Part shown: piece after piece, positions 13,505 to 61,666 of the stretch
Position numbering within the stretch: the first letter of the stretch is position 1
Layout of the letters: each line of letters opens with the position of its first letter
Assembly: GCA_024103355.1 (NCBI GenBank)
Contig: JAGFIU010000024.1
Coordinates: forward strand, 62,001 to 126,000
DNA: 64,000 bases
Source: Bacteroidota bacterium
GTDB lineage: Bacteria > Bacteroidota > Bacteroidia > NS11-12g > UBA955
Direction of reading: 5' to 3'
The notes under the pieces: generated by a model
What the model was told of the DNA's origin: nothing
The model's input: the letters and a program-made list of their open reading frames with translations, nothing else
Database searches by the model: none
Translations under genes and position numbers: made by a program

Positions 13505-14290
13505 TTAATCAATTAAGTCTTCTGCTTTAGCAATCAACTCAGCAATATCAATAACTTTCATATCATTTTCTTTGCCGCAGGCTTTAATTCCGTCTTGTAG
13601 CATAATCATACAGAAGGGACAATTTGATGCAACCACCTTAGCACCTGTTTCAATGGCTTGTTCAATACGAGCGGTATTGATTTCTTTTTTTCCTTTTTCA
13701 GATTCTTTAAAGACCTGGGCTCCTCCTGCACCACAACACATTCCTTTGCTTCTGCAGGTTTTCATTTCCACAAGGTCTGCTTCCATAGCGGCAATAACCT
13801 CTCTGGGGGCTTCATACACTCCATTTCCACGACCGAGGTAACAACTGTCATGATAGGTGATTTTCTTTCCTTTGTAGAATCCGCCTTTTATTTTAAGCCT
13901 GCCTTCATTGATAAGGCTTTGTAAAAACTGAGTGTGGTGAAGCACTTCATAATTTCCGCCAAGTTCGGGATATTCATTTTTGATTGTGTTAAAACAATGC
14001 GGACAAGTTGCCACGATTTTCTTAACTCCATAACCGTTAAGTACCGCAATGTTATTACTTGCCTGCATTTGGAACAAAAACTCATTACCAGCTCTTTTTG
14101 CAGGGTCTCCGGTACAACTTTCTTCGTTGCCCAAAACAGCAAACTTTACACCTGCATAATCCAAAATTTTTGCAAAAGCTTTGGTTACTCTTTGTGCCCT
14201 TTGGTCGAAACTACCGGCACATCCTACCCAAAAAAGTATTTCAGGCGTTTCGCCTGCTGCTAAATAATCTGCATAAGTTCTTACTTTCAT
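13505..14290 (-). CDS. CCG-domain Fe-S protein, HdrB-like
   Basis: A 261-residue protein with two cysteine-rich CCG domains, as in heterodisulfide reductase subunit HdrB, GlpC and LutA. The first has CAGSFDQRA, ESCTGDPAKRAG and CPHCFNTIKNEYP. The second has HDSCYLGRGN, MCCGAGGAQVF and CPFCMIMLQDG. These cysteines ligate non-cubane or coupled Fe-S clusters. It is 12 bases downstream of the membrane Fe-S gene on the same strand, so the pair should act as one complex that moves electrons between a soluble donor and quinone. The donor is unknown; ETF or a dehydrogenase are candidates by analogy only. Confidence 0.85.
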   Translation of the reverse strand: MKVRTYADYLAAGETPEILFWVGCAGSFDQRAQRVTKAFAKILDYAGVKFAVLGNEESCTGDPAKRAGNEFLFQMQASNNIAVLNGYGVKKIVATCPHCFNTIKNEYPELGGNYEVLHHTQFLQSLINEGRLKIKGGFYKGKKITYHDSCYLGRGNGVYEAPREVIAAMEADLVEMKTCRSKGMCCGAGGAQVFKESEKGKKEINTARIEQAIETGAKVVASNCPFCMIMLQDGIKACGKENDMKVIDIAELIAKAEDLID

Positions 14291-14302
14291 TTTCGTCTGA
14301 TT

Positions 14303-15613
14303 TTAATTTTCGTCTTTTTTGCTTTCATTCTCGAGGTCGATAGCCCAATTGGCTCTTTCGCTTTGTGCAAACTGCCATGGGGCACCATTATTTTCAATAT
14401 TGCTAAACATCATATTCCATTCCTGTGGTGCTGCTGATTCTTCCATAACCAAATATTGTCGCATATTCACTATAATATCCATTGGATTGATATTAATAGG
14501 ACAAACTTCAACACAAGCGTTGCAAGTAGTACAAGCCAATAGTTCCTCTTTGGTTATATAGGTATGCAAATCTTTGGGCTGTTCCGGTTCAGGCAAAACA
14601 CCATCTCTTATTTTGCCTACTTCTTCCAAGCGGTCGCGTGTGTCCATCATCACTTTGCGTGGTGAGAGAAGTTTTCCGGTAGTATTTGCAGGACATACAG
14701 AAGTACAACGTCCACATTCCGTACATGAATAAGCATCCAACAAGTTTTTCCATGTTAAATCTTCAACGTCTTTCACTCCAAACCTCGGGTTCTCAACCGT
14801 TGGCGGAGTAAACGAAGTATCCATCATGGCTTTAACCTCATTGCTGACCAACTCATTATTTTTGAATTTGGCTTTAGGGTCAAGATTGGTGTAATAAGTG
14901 TTTGGGAAAGCCAGAATAATATGAAGATGCTTGCTATAAGGGACATAGTTCAAAAACCAAAGTATTCCAACAAAGTGAAACCACCATGCTGCTTGCACCC
15001 AAAGATGTGCTGAAGAATCGCTCATATTTTCAAACATTGGATATAGAAAACTGCTGACCGGCATTGAAGCATCTGCTTGAAAAGAGCGGTCTGCCGCATT
15101 CATTACAATAAGAGCAACCATCAAAACTATTTCAACCACCAAAATTACGTTGGCATCAAAAAACGGCCATCCCTTGAGTTCCGGTGATTGGAAACGGTAT
15201 ATCTTCATAGCATTTCTTCTGAACAGAAAAATAATACATGAGATAATCACAAGCAGACCAAGGATTTCGAAGAAAGCAATTGAGAAATCATAAAGTCCTC
15301 CCAAGACTGGTCTAAATACTCTGTGAGTTCCGGCAATTCCATCAATAATAATTTCTAATACTTCAATATTGATTAGGACAAACCCTAAATACACAAACAC
15401 ATGCAATATGCCGGCAATAGGTTTAATTTTTGTCATTTTGCCTTGCCCTACTGCAAAACGGAGCATATTCTTCCAGCGTTTGGCTTTGTTATCACTGAGG
15501 TCTATGTCTTTCCCCAGTTTAATATTTCGGATGATTCGATTGATACTTCTATAGAAGAAATAAACTCCTGCACCGAGTATTAGTATAAATAAGATTTGTG
15601 AAAGATACTGCAT
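14303..15613 (-). CDS. Membrane Fe-S oxidoreductase, HdrC/DsrM-like
   Basis: A 436-residue protein. About five or six transmembrane helices (residues 1-25, 60-90, 105-130, 150-175, 205-230) form an NarI/DsrM-like heme b or quinone-binding region. A cytoplasmic part follows with two [4Fe-4S] motifs, CTECGRCTSVCP near residue 290 and CTTCNACVEVCP near residue 345. It is partner to the HdrB-like protein encoded directly downstream. The pair resembles the ETF:quinone or lactate-utilisation type of respiratory modules in Bacteroidota, but no substrate-specific subunit lies beside it. Confidence 0.82.
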   Translation of the reverse strand: MQYLSQILFILILGAGVYFFYRSINRIIRNIKLGKDIDLSDNKAKRWKNMLRFAVGQGKMTKIKPIAGILHVFVYLGFVLINIEVLEIIIDGIAGTHRVFRPVLGGLYDFSIAFFEILGLLVIISCIIFLFRRNAMKIYRFQSPELKGWPFFDANVILVVEIVLMVALIVMNAADRSFQADASMPVSSFLYPMFENMSDSSAHLWVQAAWWFHFVGILWFLNYVPYSKHLHIILAFPNTYYTNLDPKAKFKNNELVSNEVKAMMDTSFTPPTVENPRFGVKDVEDLTWKNLLDAYSCTECGRCTSVCPANTTGKLLSPRKVMMDTRDRLEEVGKIRDGVLPEPEQPKDLHTYITKEELLACTTCNACVEVCPININPMDIIVNMRQYLVMEESAAPQEWNMMFSNIENNGAPWQFAQSERANWAIDLENESKKDEN

Positions 15614-55221: not shown

Positions 55222-57162
55222 TTATTTTACTTCTTGCAAAGCACCTTCTTTAAAGATAATAAAAGTACCATCTCCTTTCTTTAGTTTGACATTGTCAATG
55301 CGATATTTAACATCAGGGAAAGCCTTTTCTTGCATTTCAACATCAACTGCATTTTCATTGAGTACCAATTGGGTATAAATGAACATTGCAATATCACTGC
55401 GGATTCCTCGAGGTTTGTATTCTTTCTCGTAAAGTAATTGCTTGGTTTCAGAAGAATAGATTCTGAGCATCACATCACTACGCTTCTTCACAACGGGTTT
55501 GAGCGTCCTCATGTGTATAGCTCCTGAATTATTTTGCTCATACTCCTCCGGAGTGGAGATATACTTAAAATTGACAATCAAAGTTTTCTCCTTAGGATTA
55601 AAAAAATGAATAGTCGTACTGCTCAGAGGAATCATCAATGCAAAAAACAAGGTCATTATCAGGACTGAAATGATATGATGTTTCTTTCTGTTATCTTCAA
55701 TCCCCGGTTCATTATAACCATTATTGCTAACTTCTTGTTTGGTAAAATCAGATAATTTTTCTTTTGAGTACTGCGTGAGTGTAAACAATTTAACATTTCC
55801 TGCATCGTATTTTTTGGAAAACAAAGGTGCTCTTTTTCTGTTGAATCTGTTTACAGTCCAAGTTTTTCCTAAACGATAATAGCAGTCTTCACAACTCAAT
55901 AATGCTACTTTTTTGGTGTTATTATCCAACATTTCCTGCACATCTCGCGGATAGACGCTGCCAATACAGGGAACTCTATAGTGTTTTATGTTCAAATCCT
56001 GAGGTATTTCGGGTTCAGGAAAATAGCTACAACTGAATAAGGTTACATCTGATTTTTGGTTCTCAACTTGTACATTTAGTTGCGGAAACAAATCGTGTGA
56101 AATAGCATGCGTATGACAAGAGCCTATACAGATATTACACCCAACACATTTGTCAGGTGAAAGAATTGCTTTTCTTTCTCCACCTTTGTTCATCATATCA
56201 ATTGCCTCGTAGGGGCAATCAAAAGCACATAAATTGCAACCATCACAAGCATCCAAGTCAATACGTACCGGAGGATTGTCTTTGCGTTTAAAAAAAAATG
56301 GAATACATGTTAAGAAAGCACCGGACACAATCAGATAAACCCAATTCATGTTACTGCTAGATACTTTCATAAAATAGTATCCAAAATAATAATACCAATC
56401 AAAAGTGGTTTGAGTTGGCAAGTAAGACATTTGAGCCGGAGGGTCGCTTTTTACAGGAAAAACAAATGAAATGACAGTTAGAGCGATAATCGAATAATAA
56501 GTCAATTGTTGTGGCGGAAAAATCTTTGGCTTCGAAATACGCATTACATGAATCCAAATGATGAAAACTGTCAATAAAGAAAGGGCAATATGTCCAAACA
56601 CCGCAACTTTAAAAAAACCTCCAACCGTATTCAAATCATTCATCAAAAATGCTCCGGCAATTGATGGGTCGAAAATGGGTAATGCCGCAAAAAGTTTCGC
56701 GGTCAAATATCCCGTGAGCTTAGCTTTTTGATCCCAAACCAATATAAATCCTGTAATTCCAATAATAAGCACAACCATAATGGAGACAACTCCGCTTATC
56801 CAAGCAAGTAATCTTTTGAATTTGGATACTATGATTACCTGAATAAAATGTAGTGCCATAAAGATAATCAGCAAATCTGAAGAATAGCGGTGGATAGTTC
56901 GCATATAGCCATTGAATATATTGGAGGACATGGCATCTACAGACTCCCAAGCCATACGAGGATTAATATTATAAAAGATAAAAACATAAATACCGGAAAT
57001 ACAAGCAATTGCAAACATTATCACAGCTATACCTCCAAGATAATAAAGAGGGTTCAATTCTGTTGAATATATTTTTCCTATAATGGTAGCGAATTTTTGA
57101 AATAACTGATGTCCTCGAGTGTGTTTTTTTATTGATTCAGATTCAATGTTTTTTTGATTCAT
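55222..57162 (-). CDS. Cytochrome b-ferredoxin-MvhD fusion protein
   Basis: A 646-residue membrane protein that joins three electron-transfer modules. Residues 35-220 are a cytochrome b N-terminal domain with four heme histidines, H91 and H105, then H191 and H205, each pair 14 apart. Further helices and DWYYYFGYYFM (compare PEWY) follow to about 290. Residues 300-350 are a 2x[4Fe-4S] ferredoxin (C306/309/312/316 and C339/342/345/349). Residues 372-445 resemble MvhD/FlpD of hydrogenase-heterodisulfide reductase complexes (C378, C399, C424, C427). A last helix (about 497-515) leads to a C-terminal soluble domain of about 130 residues I do not recognise. It is the last gene of the oxidase-like operon, 2 bases after sco. 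Confidence 0.85.
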   Translation of the reverse strand: MNQKNIESESIKKHTRGHQLFQKFATIIGKIYSTELNPLYYLGGIAVIMFAIACISGIYVFIFYNINPRMAWESVDAMSSNIFNGYMRTIHRYSSDLLIIFMALHFIQVIIVSKFKRLLAWISGVVSIMVVLIIGITGFILVWDQKAKLTGYLTAKLFAALPIFDPSIAGAFLMNDLNTVGGFFKVAVFGHIALSLLTVFIIWIHVMRISKPKIFPPQQLTYYSIIALTVISFVFPVKSDPPAQMSYLPTQTTFDWYYYFGYYFMKVSSSNMNWVYLIVSGAFLTCIPFFFKRKDNPPVRIDLDACDGCNLCAFDCPYEAIDMMNKGGERKAILSPDKCVGCNICIGSCHTHAISHDLFPQLNVQVENQKSDVTLFSCSYFPEPEIPQDLNIKHYRVPCIGSVYPRDVQEMLDNNTKKVALLSCEDCYYRLGKTWTVNRFNRKRAPLFSKKYDAGNVKLFTLTQYSKEKLSDFTKQEVSNNGYNEPGIEDNRKKHHIISVLIMTLFFALMIPLSSTTIHFFNPKEKTLIVNFKYISTPEEYEQNNSGAIHMRTLKPVVKKRSDVMLRIYSSETKQLLYEKEYKPRGIRSDIAMFIYTQLVLNENAVDVEMQEKAFPDVKYRIDNVKLKKGDGTFIIFKEGALQEVK

Positions 57163-57164
57163 GT

Positions 57165-57896
57165 TTAGTCTATAATAAAGGATTTGATAAAAAGTCTTGA
57201 AACAAGTAGAATAATAAGGAGGCCGGCAGAGGTTGAAATAATAAATCTCCAATCCACCTTGTAAGTTTTATTAAGCGGGTCATATTTGAGGCATCTCAGA
57301 TAAAAACCTGTAAACAATCCGGGTCGGGTAATTTTTGCCTGTGCTTCCATCACAGATATTTTTAAATCTTTCTTTGAAGGTGTAACACCATAAATGTATC
57401 TTGAAACAGTTCCTTCGGGTGTCAGAACTACCAATAGAGGAGGATGGTCATATTCTTTTGTTGAGGGGATATAATCGTATTCAACACCAATAGAAGACAT
57501 AAACTTGCGAATATTTTGCGGGGTAGCAGATAACGCCATCCATTTCTTCCCGTCAATAATCCAACGACTTTCATAAACGGCCAGACTTCTGGGGTTTTCG
57601 GTGCTATCAAATGAAAAACTCACCACTGTGTAGTCATCTCCCAAACCATCCATATCTTTAATGACATTCTGAACTCCACTGCTCACAATGCCACAGATTG
57701 AATAACAACGAGTATAAACGGGAGATATAATGATAGGCTTCCCATTAAAAATTGAGGAGAATTGTAAAACCTCTCCTTTAGAATTAAACATGGGAATATC
57801 TGCTACTTTCTGAGCGAGATGTTTTTTTTCATTTGGGAAGTTAAAACTGCTCCACAAAAACCAAAACGGTACCAACCACAAAAAATATTTCCTCAT
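57165..57896 (-). CDS. SCO1/SenC-family copper chaperone
   Basis: A 243-residue exported, membrane-anchored thioredoxin-fold protein that delivers copper, typically to CuA. The copper-binding CxxxC is in YTRCYSICG near residue 60, and the third ligand His in YDHPPLLVVL. An N-terminal signal and a C-terminal helix (about 220-240) are present, which is longer than the usual family. It lies between coxI-like and cytochrome b genes, fitting a role in assembling this CuA enzyme. Confidence 0.9.
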   Translation of the reverse strand: MRKYFLWLVPFWFLWSSFNFPNEKKHLAQKVADIPMFNSKGEVLQFSSIFNGKPIIISPVYTRCYSICGIVSSGVQNVIKDMDGLGDDYTVVSFSFDSTENPRSLAVYESRWIIDGKKWMALSATPQNIRKFMSSIGVEYDYIPSTKEYDHPPLLVVLTPEGTVSRYIYGVTPSKKDLKISVMEAQAKITRPGLFTGFYLRCLKYDPLNKTYKVDWRFIISTSAGLLIILLVSRLFIKSFIID

Positions 57897-57951: not shown

Positions 57952-59619
57952 TTAATTAACGTTCCATGTTGCTGCAAGCCATTTCCAGTTGAGGAAGAAA
58001 AGAGCAAGGAAGACAAGAAGGAACAAGAATGTAAGTACAAGAGTACCCGGGGCTTCAAAACCTTTATGAGGTTTGCCTTCGGGAGGTAGAGGAGAAATTG
58101 TCAATTGCATATCTTGAGGGCCGTTAACCTTTGGTCCCCAAAATACAGAGAAAACAACAATCAATATCCAGATTAACGTTGCAGTGAATGCAATAACACC
58201 ACCCAACATTGTAATTACCCAGAAGAAATCAACAGCAGGGTTAAAATTATGTGAGAAAGGACCGCCTGAGAATGTGTTATCCCAATGTCTTCTTGGAACA
58301 CCAAGCTGACCTAATACAATCATACCAATAGAAAGCATTGCAATTCCTATAAAAAATAACCAAGGTTGCCATTGAGCCAATTTGAATCCTACAATCTTTC
58401 TTCTGAAAATCAATGGGATTAAATAATATGTAATACCCATGAAAGTAAGTGTGGTACCAATCACAACTGTGCCTTTGAAGTGTCCGGGAATTGCAATTGT
58501 GTTGTGAACAATGATATTGGTTTGTTCCATACCAAAAATAACACCGGTAGTTCCACCAATAAATCCAAAACCGATGATAGCTAGAATAATAGCAGAGAAA
58601 GCAGGATTCCCCCAAGGCGCCTTAGCTAACCATTGGAATAAACCTTTATTAAATCCCCATTTACGCTGCGCCACCTCAAAAGAAGAAGGAACTGCAAATG
58701 CGTGTATCATGGACGCAAGAACTGCGAGATACATAGCATAACTGGTGTTCCAAACTTTCCATGCACTACTCACTCCTGGGTCTGTCAACAAATGGTGCGC
58801 AGAAGCAAGGCAGATGAAAAGAATGTATAGTACAAATGCAGAACGAGATACCTTCTCATTAATTGAGGTACCGCCCACTGTCAAAAATGAAGTCATGTAC
58901 CATATAGAAACCATAGCTGCCACGTTAATTTGTTGAGAGGAGTGTCCCAATCCCCACCAAATCAGTTTATACATTGCCGGGTCAACATTATCGATTAATC
59001 CCAAAGACCAAAGGAATGTAGGAATATAAATTAATGCACCTGAGGCAAGGGTAATCACTGCAATAATGGCTGCGGTCATCAAACCATAAGCCACAAGAGG
59101 CATTGTTTCGCCATAGGTTTTTTCACGTCTGGCAATCATTAAGTTTCCGAAAAATAAAATCACTGCAATAAGAGCACCTACGGCAAACAGTATAATTCCA
59201 AGATAGTAAAGAGGATGCGCTTTCAAAGGAGTATAAGAAGTCAGCATGACATCCGCTTTTCCCATCAAAATGATAATATTTGAAATTACAAGACCCGCAA
59301 CCATCAATCCAAATGCCCACCAACCGGTTTTGGGTGAACAAAATCTTGTGTTCAGTATGACGGTTGAACCAAAATACAACCCTGCAACCTCAAAGAAAAT
59401 TATCCAAAATATAAGTGCATTCAATCCGTGAAAAGTTACCAAACGATAGTACCATTCTGCACCTAACAAATGCATAGGCTGATACCTTGTAAACACTAAT
59501 AATAGAGCGGCAACTACTGCCATTAATAATGAAATAACGGCAAACACCGCATTATATCGAATGAGTTTTTCTGACCTTAAGTCAACTTTAAACCCAGTTA
59601 TATCACATGTTCTAAACAT
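57952..59619 (-). CDS. B-family heme-copper oxidase subunit I with altered active site
   Basis: A 555-residue membrane protein with 12-14 helices, resembling Thermus ba3-type (B-family) subunit I. Conserved: low-spin heme His64 (VTFHGLNAL), CuB ligands His226 (WWGLGHSSQQ) and His275-His276 (SAHHLLTDPG), high-spin heme His380 (IPGHFKGTV). Changed: the position of the cross-linked Tyr (four residues after His226) is Gln230, and the position of the second low-spin heme His (two after His380) is Lys382. Typical O2 reductases have Tyr and His there. It is therefore a candidate NO reductase-like member of the superfamily. Flanked by CuA subunit II and sco. Confidence 0.85.
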   Translation of the reverse strand: MFRTCDITGFKVDLRSEKLIRYNAVFAVISLLMAVVAALLLVFTRYQPMHLLGAEWYYRLVTFHGLNALIFWIIFFEVAGLYFGSTVILNTRFCSPKTGWWAFGLMVAGLVISNIIILMGKADVMLTSYTPLKAHPLYYLGIILFAVGALIAVILFFGNLMIARREKTYGETMPLVAYGLMTAAIIAVITLASGALIYIPTFLWSLGLIDNVDPAMYKLIWWGLGHSSQQINVAAMVSIWYMTSFLTVGGTSINEKVSRSAFVLYILFICLASAHHLLTDPGVSSAWKVWNTSYAMYLAVLASMIHAFAVPSSFEVAQRKWGFNKGLFQWLAKAPWGNPAFSAIILAIIGFGFIGGTTGVIFGMEQTNIIVHNTIAIPGHFKGTVVIGTTLTFMGITYYLIPLIFRRKIVGFKLAQWQPWLFFIGIAMLSIGMIVLGQLGVPRRHWDNTFSGGPFSHNFNPAVDFFWVITMLGGVIAFTATLIWILIVVFSVFWGPKVNGPQDMQLTISPLPPEGKPHKGFEAPGTLVLTFLFLLVFLALFFLNWKWLAATWNVN

Positions 59620-59637: not shown

Positions 59638-60561
59638 TTAGTTTTTTAATGATTTTATAAAGGCAGTAATTTGAGCAATCTCTTTGTCTGACATTGGAGT
59701 AGGAGGCATCATTGTTGATTCAAATCCAATTGTAATTTTCTTCTGTGGTTCTAAAATAGACTCTTTAATATAAGCATCATCAACGGTTACGGTTGATTTT
59801 TTACCACCTTCTTTTATATCTTCGGTTTTACCATAAAGCCCTTTCCATGAAGGTGCAAGCAAAACAGAGCCATCGGTGCTGTGGCAACCAATACAACCTT
59901 TGAGGGCATACAGCTGTTCACCCAATGTAACCATTTGTTCCTCTGACAAAGGTTTGTCGTCACTCTCTTCAATAATGGGGTCAGGTTTTGTCTTCATATT
60001 CTCATATCCATACAATTTAAGGTCTTCGTCTTTTTCAATCACGATTATCTTGCCAATCATTGTATGGTGACCAATACCACAGAACTCATTACAAACTATC
60101 TTGAACTCTCCGGTCTCAGTAGGTGTAAATTTTAGCACATAGTCATACCCGGGATAAATCTGAAAATTCATATTTACGGGTTGAAGTGAAAAGCCATGTA
60201 CTAAATCTTTGGAAGAGATATGAAAATTGTATGATTGGTCTTTTATCAATATCATAGCAGGACTAAATCTCCACATTTCTGCCAATAAAAAGACATCAGA
60301 ATTTGGCTCAGGACGAACAACAGGAACTCCGTTATCCATTCCAACCAAATTTCGTTTGATATACGCTTCGCTAAGTTTTGCAAATTCTGTGGTAGTTGTG
60401 CGATAAGTGATGCTTGAGGGATTTTGTTTACCGTAAACGTGCCATAAAATCATCCAAACAAACATTGCCAGACATAAAATCAAGGCAATCACCATCCACA
60501 TTTTTTCGTCTTTGGACACCTTCGTGTCGTACCAACCTTCTTTAGGACTTAATAAACTCAT
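59638..60561 (-). CDS. Subunit II with CuA site and fused cytochrome c
   Basis: A 307-residue protein. One N-terminal helix (residues 21-42) anchors a cupredoxin domain whose CuA ligands are all present: His122 (VHGFS), Cys157 and Cys161 with Glu159 (CNEFC), His165 and Met168 (CGIGHHTM). A cytochrome c domain follows, with heme motif CIGCH at 223-227 and a likely axial Met in STMMPP. It therefore takes electrons from a soluble or membrane cytochrome c. It is 18 bases upstream of subunit I. Confidence 0.93.
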   Translation of the reverse strand: MSLLSPKEGWYDTKVSKDEKMWMVIALILCLAMFVWMILWHVYGKQNPSSITYRTTTTEFAKLSEAYIKRNLVGMDNGVPVVRPEPNSDVFLLAEMWRFSPAMILIKDQSYNFHISSKDLVHGFSLQPVNMNFQIYPGYDYVLKFTPTETGEFKIVCNEFCGIGHHTMIGKIIVIEKDEDLKLYGYENMKTKPDPIIEESDDKPLSEEQMVTLGEQLYALKGCIGCHSTDGSVLLAPSWKGLYGKTEDIKEGGKKSTVTVDDAYIKESILEPQKKITIGFESTMMPPTPMSDKEIAQITAFIKSLKN

Positions 60562-60584: not shown

Positions 60585-60773
60585 TTACTTGATTAAATTT
60601 GACTTGACTTCATCCGGAATCCCCGGAAGATTTGATAATTCCATTACTCCCCACAAGAGGTAAAAAATGGCGTAGATAGTTACTCCCAAGAATAATAACA
60701 GCATGAAATCATCCATTATCATTCTGTAGAAAGGAACTCTTTTTGGGTCTTGATTTTGTTGTTCTTGTTCCAT
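60585..60773 (-). CDS. Small single-helix subunit of the oxidase-like complex
   Basis: A 62-residue protein with one transmembrane helix (residues 24-47: FMLLLFLGVTIYAIFYLLWGV). Its place as the first gene before subunit II is that of the small subunit IIa or CcoQ-like proteins of B-family oxidases. No sequence motif identifies it more exactly. Confidence 0.75.
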   Translation of the reverse strand: MEQEQQNQDPKRVPFYRMIMDDFMLLLFLGVTIYAIFYLLWGVMELSNLPGIPDEVKSNLIK

Positions 60774-60925: not shown

Positions 60926-61666
60926 TTACATTGAAGTGCTCAAAGGTTCGCTGAAGTTAGGGTTTGAAAGTGCTAACAATCCTTTGATATTGAGAAAATG
61001 GAATTTTTTGGCAGTGCATTTTATCAAGCCTTCTTTTTCAAAGTCTTTGAGAATTTTGGAAACTTGTTCTTTTGTGGTTCCAATCAAATCAGCTATGTCT
61101 TGTCTTTGAAAATTTATTTTAAAACTTTGGCTACCCCCTTCATATTGATACACTTCTGCAAGCATCAACAATGCTTCTGCAAGGTTTTCTCTTACAGTTT
61201 TGATAGCCAGATTTACCGCTTTTGTTTCTGCAAAATTCAATTCTTCTATTGATTGGTTAATTATCTCTTGTTTGAGATTTGAAGATTTTGCAACAATGTT
61301 TTTGAAAACGATATTGGGTACATAACAATATTCTACATCAGAACCGGCTACTGCAGAAAATGTATGAATTTTATGTTTTTCATTTATATTGATTCTACTT
61401 CCTAAAATTGCACCTTTACTAACTATTCTTAGAATTAAGGGTCTTCCGTTTCTCCCCATAGATTCAATTTTAATAAACCCATTTTTTATGAAGTAAACTC
61501 CTTTAATCTCATCGCCTTTGGAAAAGAGTGCCTCTCCATTTTTCAATGCCCCACGAATCTTAAATGTGCTTAGGGCTTGAAGAGTTTCGTAATTACAATC
61601 TTTCAGAATTGAGCAATCTCGGGTTTTGCAATGAATACAATCGTAGCGTGATTTGTCCAAATTCAT
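60926..61666 (-). CDS. FNR-type Crp-family regulator with Fe-S cysteines
   Basis: A 246-residue transcription factor. The N-terminus has C10, C13, C18 and C24 (CIHCKTRDCSILKDC), close to E. coli FNR (AIHCQDCSISQLC), and C114 in VEYCYVPN aligns with FNR Cys122. A [4Fe-4S] sensor of oxygen or NO is therefore likely. A cyclic-nucleotide-type fold (about 30-150) is followed by an HTH domain with the recognition helix TTKEQVSKILK: Glu200 and Ser203 match the FNR contacts, while Lys204 replaces the usual Arg. It is transcribed toward the oxidase-like operon, which it is likely to regulate. Confidence 0.88.
   Translation of the reverse strand: MNLDKSRYDCIHCKTRDCSILKDCNYETLQALSTFKIRGALKNGEALFSKGDEIKGVYFIKNGFIKIESMGRNGRPLILRIVSKGAILGSRININEKHKIHTFSAVAGSDVEYCYVPNIVFKNIVAKSSNLKQEIINQSIEELNFAETKAVNLAIKTVRENLAEALLMLAEVYQYEGGSQSFKINFQRQDIADLIGTTKEQVSKILKDFEKEGLIKCTAKKFHFLNIKGLLALSNPNFSEPLSTSM

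Follow-up and report, generated by a model that had tools for sequence, protein, structure and literature searches.

The window, by which we mean the whole 64,000-nucleotide stretch of Bacteroidota DNA analysed here, carries a CuA/heme-copper operon whose 3′ gene encodes a membrane protein that we call P1 (Table 1). The first-pass annotation of this DNA described P1 as a 646-residue three-part fusion of cytochrome b, a 2x[4Fe-4S] ferredoxin and an MvhD-like domain. Its coordinates and length are correct, and the gene reads on the minus strand from an ATG at 57162 to a stop at 55222. The fusion is real, conserved and far outside what chance would produce, with all three domains found in one chain by Pfam and in an alignment of 25 family members (the window copy plus relatives from fetched loci). 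An incidental fusion or an assembly error was rejected, since the fusion is conserved in about 30 loci. The AlphaFold2 (AF2) model of P1 has a pLDDT of 80.7 and a pTM of 0.77. A scan of viral contigs returned no relative.

Table 1. Positions in the window of the P1 gene, the regions of its product and the neighbouring genes.
Feature	Position	Strand	Basis or remark
P1: cytochrome b - 2x[4Fe-4S] - FlpD - transmembrane helix - beta domain	55222..57162	-	646 aa
P1, cytochrome b helices A-D, residues 28-209	56536..57081	-	PF00033
P1, heme His codons H91, H105, H191, H205	56890-56892, 56848-56850, 56590-56592, 56548-56550	-	
P1, helices E and F of cytochrome b, including the ef (quinol-site) loop FDWYYY	56293..56511	-	profile and AF2
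P1, 2x[4Fe-4S] ferredoxin domain, Cys 306, 309, 312, 316, 339, 342, 345, 349	56095..56271	-	Fer4
P1, FlpD/MvhD-like domain, residues 370-480, Cys 378, 399, 424, 427	55723..56055	-	PF02662
P1, last transmembrane helix, residues 496-514	55621..55677	-	AF2 models
P1, C-terminal beta-sandwich, residues 526-646, predicted periplasmic	55225..55587	-	AF2
SCO1/SenC copper chaperone	57165..57896	-	PF02630
Heme-copper subunit I, eNOR-type	57952..59619	-	PF00115 and ba3 oxidase alignment
Subunit II: CuA domain (CNEFCGIGHHTM) fused to mono-heme cytochrome c (CxxCH)	59638..60561	-	PF00116 and PF00034
62-aa single-helix protein, upstream of subunit II	60585..60773	-	
FNR-family regulator, Cys 10, 13, 18, 24, 114	60926..61666	-	

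Domain architecture of P1

The N-terminal part of P1 matches Cytochrome_B (PF00033) with 55.2 bits against a cut-off of 27.2, and its AF2 fold matches the cytochrome b of bc1/b6f complexes. The four heme-b histidines at 14-residue spacing that had been noted earlier are present as two pairs (H91/H105 and H191/H205) and are invariant in 25 of 25 members. This part is longer than first described, continuing through helices E and F and a quinol-site-like loop. Here the AF2 model has helices at residues 218-234, 256-267 and 270-290, and a profile of the region matches nothing in the PDB but b6f subunit IV and cytochrome b, weakly (E 0.02-0.4). In this weak profile match the invariant D255 (56398-56400) aligns with the Glu of PEWY, the motif of the quinol site, and this acid is the only invariant residue of the motif. 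P1 resembles the cytochrome b of bc1/b6f complexes in its fold, in the four heme histidines and in having helices E/F with an ef loop, but reads FDWY for PEWY, carries cytoplasmic Fe-S domains and belongs to an operon with neither a Rieske protein nor cytochrome c1/f. Since no Rieske protein was matched in this genome, the possibility that the operon encodes a bc1 complex was rejected.

Fer4 motifs follow at residues 300-355 (Pfam), and all eight ferredoxin cysteines that had been claimed are invariant (25/25). The next domain matches FlpD (PF02662) at residues 391-475 with 26.3 bits (cut-off 22.3), and the same family is found in 24 of the 25 P1 relatives at E 0.01. The MvhD/FlpD assignment, on which the first-pass annotation had staked its description, was borne out when a family profile of this region recovered six MvhD/F420-non-reducing-hydrogenase delta chains from the PDB (E 1.7e-9 to 4e-4, hence below 1e-3), the sole further match listed being at E 1.1. 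The proposed MvhD-like cysteine set stands in part: C378, C399 and C424 are invariant in 25 of 25 members, but C427 occurs in 19 of 25, with Pro or Ala in distant Bacteroidota relatives. P1 lacks the second member of the first MvhD cysteine pair, and the cysteines that it does have are putative [2Fe-2S] ligands. Because the distant Bacteroidota forms lack C427, the [2Fe-2S] cluster of P1 may not be essential.

The NCBIfam model HdrA2 (NF040770) spans the ferredoxin and FlpD domains together with 45.4 bits, well short of the cut-off set for the whole protein, and this single match over both domains suggests that the soluble module of P1 resembles the C-terminal half of an HdrA-MvhD fusion. HdrA2 of Methanosarcina acetivorans is such a fusion (PMC5296606), in which the ferredoxin domain is likewise followed directly by the MvhD/FlpD domain. 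Unlike HdrA2, P1 lacks the HdrA flavin domain, is fused to a membrane cytochrome b and has no HdrBC partners in its operon.

A search of the operon revealed no hydrogenase, formate dehydrogenase or Hdr beside P1. The earlier statement to this effect holds for the operon but needs qualifying for the whole window, which contains an HdrB-like/HdrC-like pair 40 kb away. This pair (13505-15613, minus strand) consists of an HdrB-like protein with two CCG domains and a membrane HdrC-like Fe-S protein, and is a possible quinone-linked oxidoreductase. When 27 P1 genomes were searched for FlpD domains, 25 yielded one match, which was P1 itself; in the other two, the FlpD domain of P1 fell below the threshold and no other FlpD was found either. 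P1 therefore holds the sole FlpD domain in the genomes searched, which leaves no separate MvhD-type partner, and a hydrogenase-linked MvhD was rejected as its identity on the same ground. The search for a soluble partner of the P1 FlpD module likewise returned none.

The further helix and unrecognised soluble domain reported at the C-terminus are both present, the latter as a beta-sandwich with pLDDT mostly above 90 and no recognisable relative: it has no reliable Pfam family, and a PDB fold search gave nothing below E 0.001 (best E 0.0097, weak). R561, P584 and G586 of this domain are invariant in the 25-member alignment, as is the pair H550-M551, which is Asn-Met in a plasmid-borne form from Defluviimonas. 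Three relatives (L033, L039 and L046) encode the beta domain as a separate downstream gene. The membrane topology of cytochrome b is well established and was used to orient P1, which on this basis would have its Fe-S and FlpD parts in the cytoplasm and, by way of the last transmembrane helix, its C-terminal domain in the periplasm.

The operon and its heme-copper subunit I

A survey of domain order and neighbouring genes in other genomes, as the first-pass annotation had proposed, showed that both the fusion and the operon core recur. The order subunit I, SCO, P1 is fixed in 21 of 21 MAG loci, and subunit II, which combines CuA with cytochrome c, precedes subunit I wherever the contig reaches; the motifs of subunit II are also seen in relatives. 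Distant operons keep the core order at 25-38% identity for P1 and 51-75% for subunit I. An alphaproteobacterial plasmid, from Defluviimonas, carries an operon of CuA subunit, subunit I, heme o synthase, SCO, P1 and a split C-terminal domain, and this one plasmid constitutes the cross-phylum evidence. The 62-aa single-helix gene, possibly encoding a small structural subunit, is kept in Bacteroidota and in the Defluviimonas operon. In most loci the regulator gene precedes the operon, and its FNR-type cysteines are conserved in 19-20 of 20. A search upstream of the operon gave no conserved FNR-type box (2 hits against 2.2 expected). Since the other flanking genes vary between loci, and among the family and order relatives searched P1 was found only in a genome of the window's genus, the operon resembles a mobile cassette. 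Distant operons also encode, upstream of subunit II, an extra heme-copper-fold subunit of about 470-490 aa (L034:12191-13603; similar in L035, L036, L038 and L039). In this subunit the adjacent pair of CuB histidines is missing and the histidines of helix X are retained, so that it looks like a non-catalytic heme-copper paralogue.

The best solved relative of subunit I is ba3 oxidase (E 1.8e-47), and in the alignment with it the CuB and high-spin heme histidines are kept. The catalytic helix VI Tyr is replaced by Gln230 (58930-58932) in the motif GHSSQQ, and Gln occupies this site in 22 of 22 close relatives and in every aligned distant subunit I from P1 operons. The active-site Tyr cross-linked to a CuB His, which distinguishes O2 oxidases, is thus absent. 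Neither is there a Tyr at the cbb3-type helix VII site, which we take to lie six residues before H275 in the C family (cbb3); residue 269 is Ile. Gln at the helix VI Tyr site is the published signature of eNOR (PMC8756737, Table A4), and because of this match we read the enzyme as probably an eNOR-type (B-family-derived, CuA-containing) NO reductase, with a subunit I that is probably not an oxidase. As in eNOR (PMC8756737), a B-family-type subunit I with Gln for Tyr is encoded beside, and immediately downstream of, a CuA cupredoxin subunit II; unlike eNOR, the operon adds the cytochrome b-ferredoxin-FlpD protein, its subunit II has a fused cytochrome c, and its subunit I has Lys at the low-spin-heme position. 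The earlier description of the operon as CuA oxidase-like is right in assigning P1 to a CuA/heme-copper operon, of which it is the 3′ gene, but an oxidase function is at odds with GHSSQQ and with the denitrification genes of the hosts. CuA-type NO reductases are often misannotated as oxidases.

The Lys in question, Lys382 (58474-58476), stands at the ba3 low-spin-heme His position, so that helix X reads HFK rather than HFH. It is invariant in the window's clade (22 sequences) and also present in an eNOR-type enzyme encoded on a Thermus thermophilus plasmid (L064), whereas other relatives keep His. Because of this Lys, the heme set of the window-clade subunit I is uncertain, and a His/Lys-ligated heme in a heme-copper enzyme is possible. 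The eNOR-type enzymes of Thermus, Thermomicrobium and other Bacteroidota occur without P1.

Distribution of P1 and gene content of its hosts

In a phylum sample of 395 genomes, P1 was detected in 9 of 9 genomes whose subunit I is at least 52% identical and in none of the 7 at 41-43%. Placed on the subunit I tree, its presence corresponds to one change, with weak support (36/79). Eight of the nine P1 genomes have nosZ compared to 120 of 386 without P1 (p=7e-4), which is an association only, the genomes being related. Across the 27 P1 genomes searched, nosZ is present in 24 (one copy being split over two reading frames) and NirK exceeds the cut-off in 15. The genome studied here encodes NarG (1463 bits, cut-off 1084), one NrfD-type protein, a type found in alternative complex III, and a NirK (L074) that is open for 375 codons, with one TAA counted inside the search match; nosZ was not found in it. 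According to their record titles, several P1 relatives are bioreactor or groundwater MAGs.

Possible roles of P1

We propose, with a probability of roughly 55%, that P1 is a dedicated electron-supply subunit of the eNOR-type NO reductase, and it would probably serve as the reductase's own feed in bacteria living on nitrate and nitrite. The anatomy of P1 fits the electron role between a soluble donor, quinone and the reductase that had been predicted for it. Electrons would enter on the cytoplasmic side through the HdrA2-like FlpD/ferredoxin module from a soluble reductant, from menaquinol at the bc1-like site, or from both. The presence of the cytoplasmic module points to a soluble donor of low potential, that of the bc-like site to menaquinol. 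The two b hemes could then carry them across the membrane for a periplasmic handover, at the C-terminal beta domain, to the cytochrome c/CuA of subunit II, which would pass them to the NO-reducing site for N2O formation. NO reduction would in this way be independent of the cell's general quinol:cytochrome c complex. The donor role is supported by a gene order that is fixed in the MAG loci, the distant Bacteroidota and the alphaproteobacterial plasmid, by the tracking of P1 with subunit I type (9/9 vs 0/7, with Gln throughout), by hosts that have denitrification genes, by the lack of a Rieske protein in this genome, and by the lack of any other FlpD in the genomes searched. Counting against it, no cofactor linking the b hemes to cytochrome c is visible in the sequence, P1-less eNOR-type enzymes exist elsewhere, this genome has no nosZ, C427 is lost in some members, and Lys382 replaces a heme ligand position.

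It is unlikely, in our estimation, that P1 is instead an assembly or maturation factor, which would use cytoplasmic electrons to reduce copper or disulfides (CuA, SCO, CuB) during assembly of the reductase. CcoG, an Fe-S protein that serves the cbb3 oxidase, provides a model for such a role; P1 is encoded directly beside SCO, its nearly invariant periplasmic His-Met pair could bind copper, and the existence of eNOR-type enzymes without P1 would also be compatible with it. However, a complete bc-type cytochrome b that conserves the acid of the quinol site would be excess machinery for this task, the clean split of subunit I with and without P1 suggests a structural partner, and the His-Met pair has become Asn-Met in the plasmid form. 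We regard as improbable an O2 reductase or mixed NO/O2 reductase with P1 as its quinol/ferredoxin donor, the reading that the first-pass annotation implied. Subunits I and II do score against oxidase families, and ba3 oxidase is the best solved relative, but every operon sequence examined has the published eNOR signature of Gln for the helix VI Tyr, and the genome already holds further long heme-copper subunit I genes.

The least probable alternative is bifurcation. Menaquinol would be split at the bc1-like site; its first electron would pass to the NO reductase, its second along the b hemes into the cytoplasmic Fe-S/FlpD module, and the energy released by NO reduction would drive the reduction of NAD+ or ferredoxin. 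Both the bc1-type His spacing with its ef loop and the cytoplasmic HdrA2-like module, a type known from electron-bifurcating enzymes (NF040770; PMC5296606), are consistent with this scheme. Against it, the genome offers no Rieske protein to accept the first electron, the PEWY motif is not intact, distant members have lost one of the FlpD cysteines and no cytoplasmic flavoprotein partner is known. A membrane bifurcating NO reductase lacking a Rieske protein is a very doubtful description of the P1 complex.

In the preferred role as electron donor, P1 may be compared with NosR and NapH (PMC5928378), transmembrane Fe-S proteins that supply electrons to N2O reductase and nitrate reductase, a likeness of role only and not of sequence. 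The common traits are a membrane protein with 2x[4Fe-4S], a periplasmic domain (in NosR) and service to one periplasmic reductase; in contrast to these donors, P1 has a heme-b cytochrome as its membrane part, an added FlpD domain, and neither an FMN domain nor their CX3CP motifs. No FMN-binding family matched P1, and CX3CP strings occur only within the ferredoxin motif, with none in the membrane part.

To our knowledge, little is known about the electron supply of CuA-type NO reductases. The eNOR families were reportedly defined by Murali et al. in PNAS in 2024. A literature search for FlpD/MvhD with cytochrome b and a heme-copper or NO reductase returned no title or abstract describing P1; the enzyme is of a known kind, and its P1 donor subunit is undescribed as far as the literature covered shows, the eNOR-defining PNAS paper lying outside that coverage. 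If our reading is correct, P1 would represent a purpose-built donor made from bc-complex and methanogen-type parts, a marker for such operons in Bacteroidota of nitrogen-removal systems, and an FlpD domain at work outside hydrogenase/heterodisulfide chemistry. It would also make the electron source of N2O formation (quinol or ferredoxin) directly testable.

Genes resembling other NO reductases were also observed. Contig C31 of the genome studied here (L072:6539-8231) encodes a NorC-like cytochrome c and, after it, a protein of 436 aa that is NorB/CcoN-like; helix VI of this protein (YGSLVGAWNQL) is without the usual metal-binding His and Glu. The operon norSY-senC-orf1, which we take to be the sNOR operon of Nitrosomonas, resembles the P1 operon by combining a CuA subunit, a heme-copper NOR subunit I and SenC with one additional gene. 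At the Tyr site, sNOR carries Asn (PMC8756737) where the P1 operon enzyme carries Gln. The genome studied here encodes a second Tyr-less CuA-type enzyme with Asn at this site (HTIAN; contig C29, L073:5725-8464), which is sNOR/bNOR-like and adjoins SCO and narGH, so that two different Tyr-less enzymes are present in one genome.
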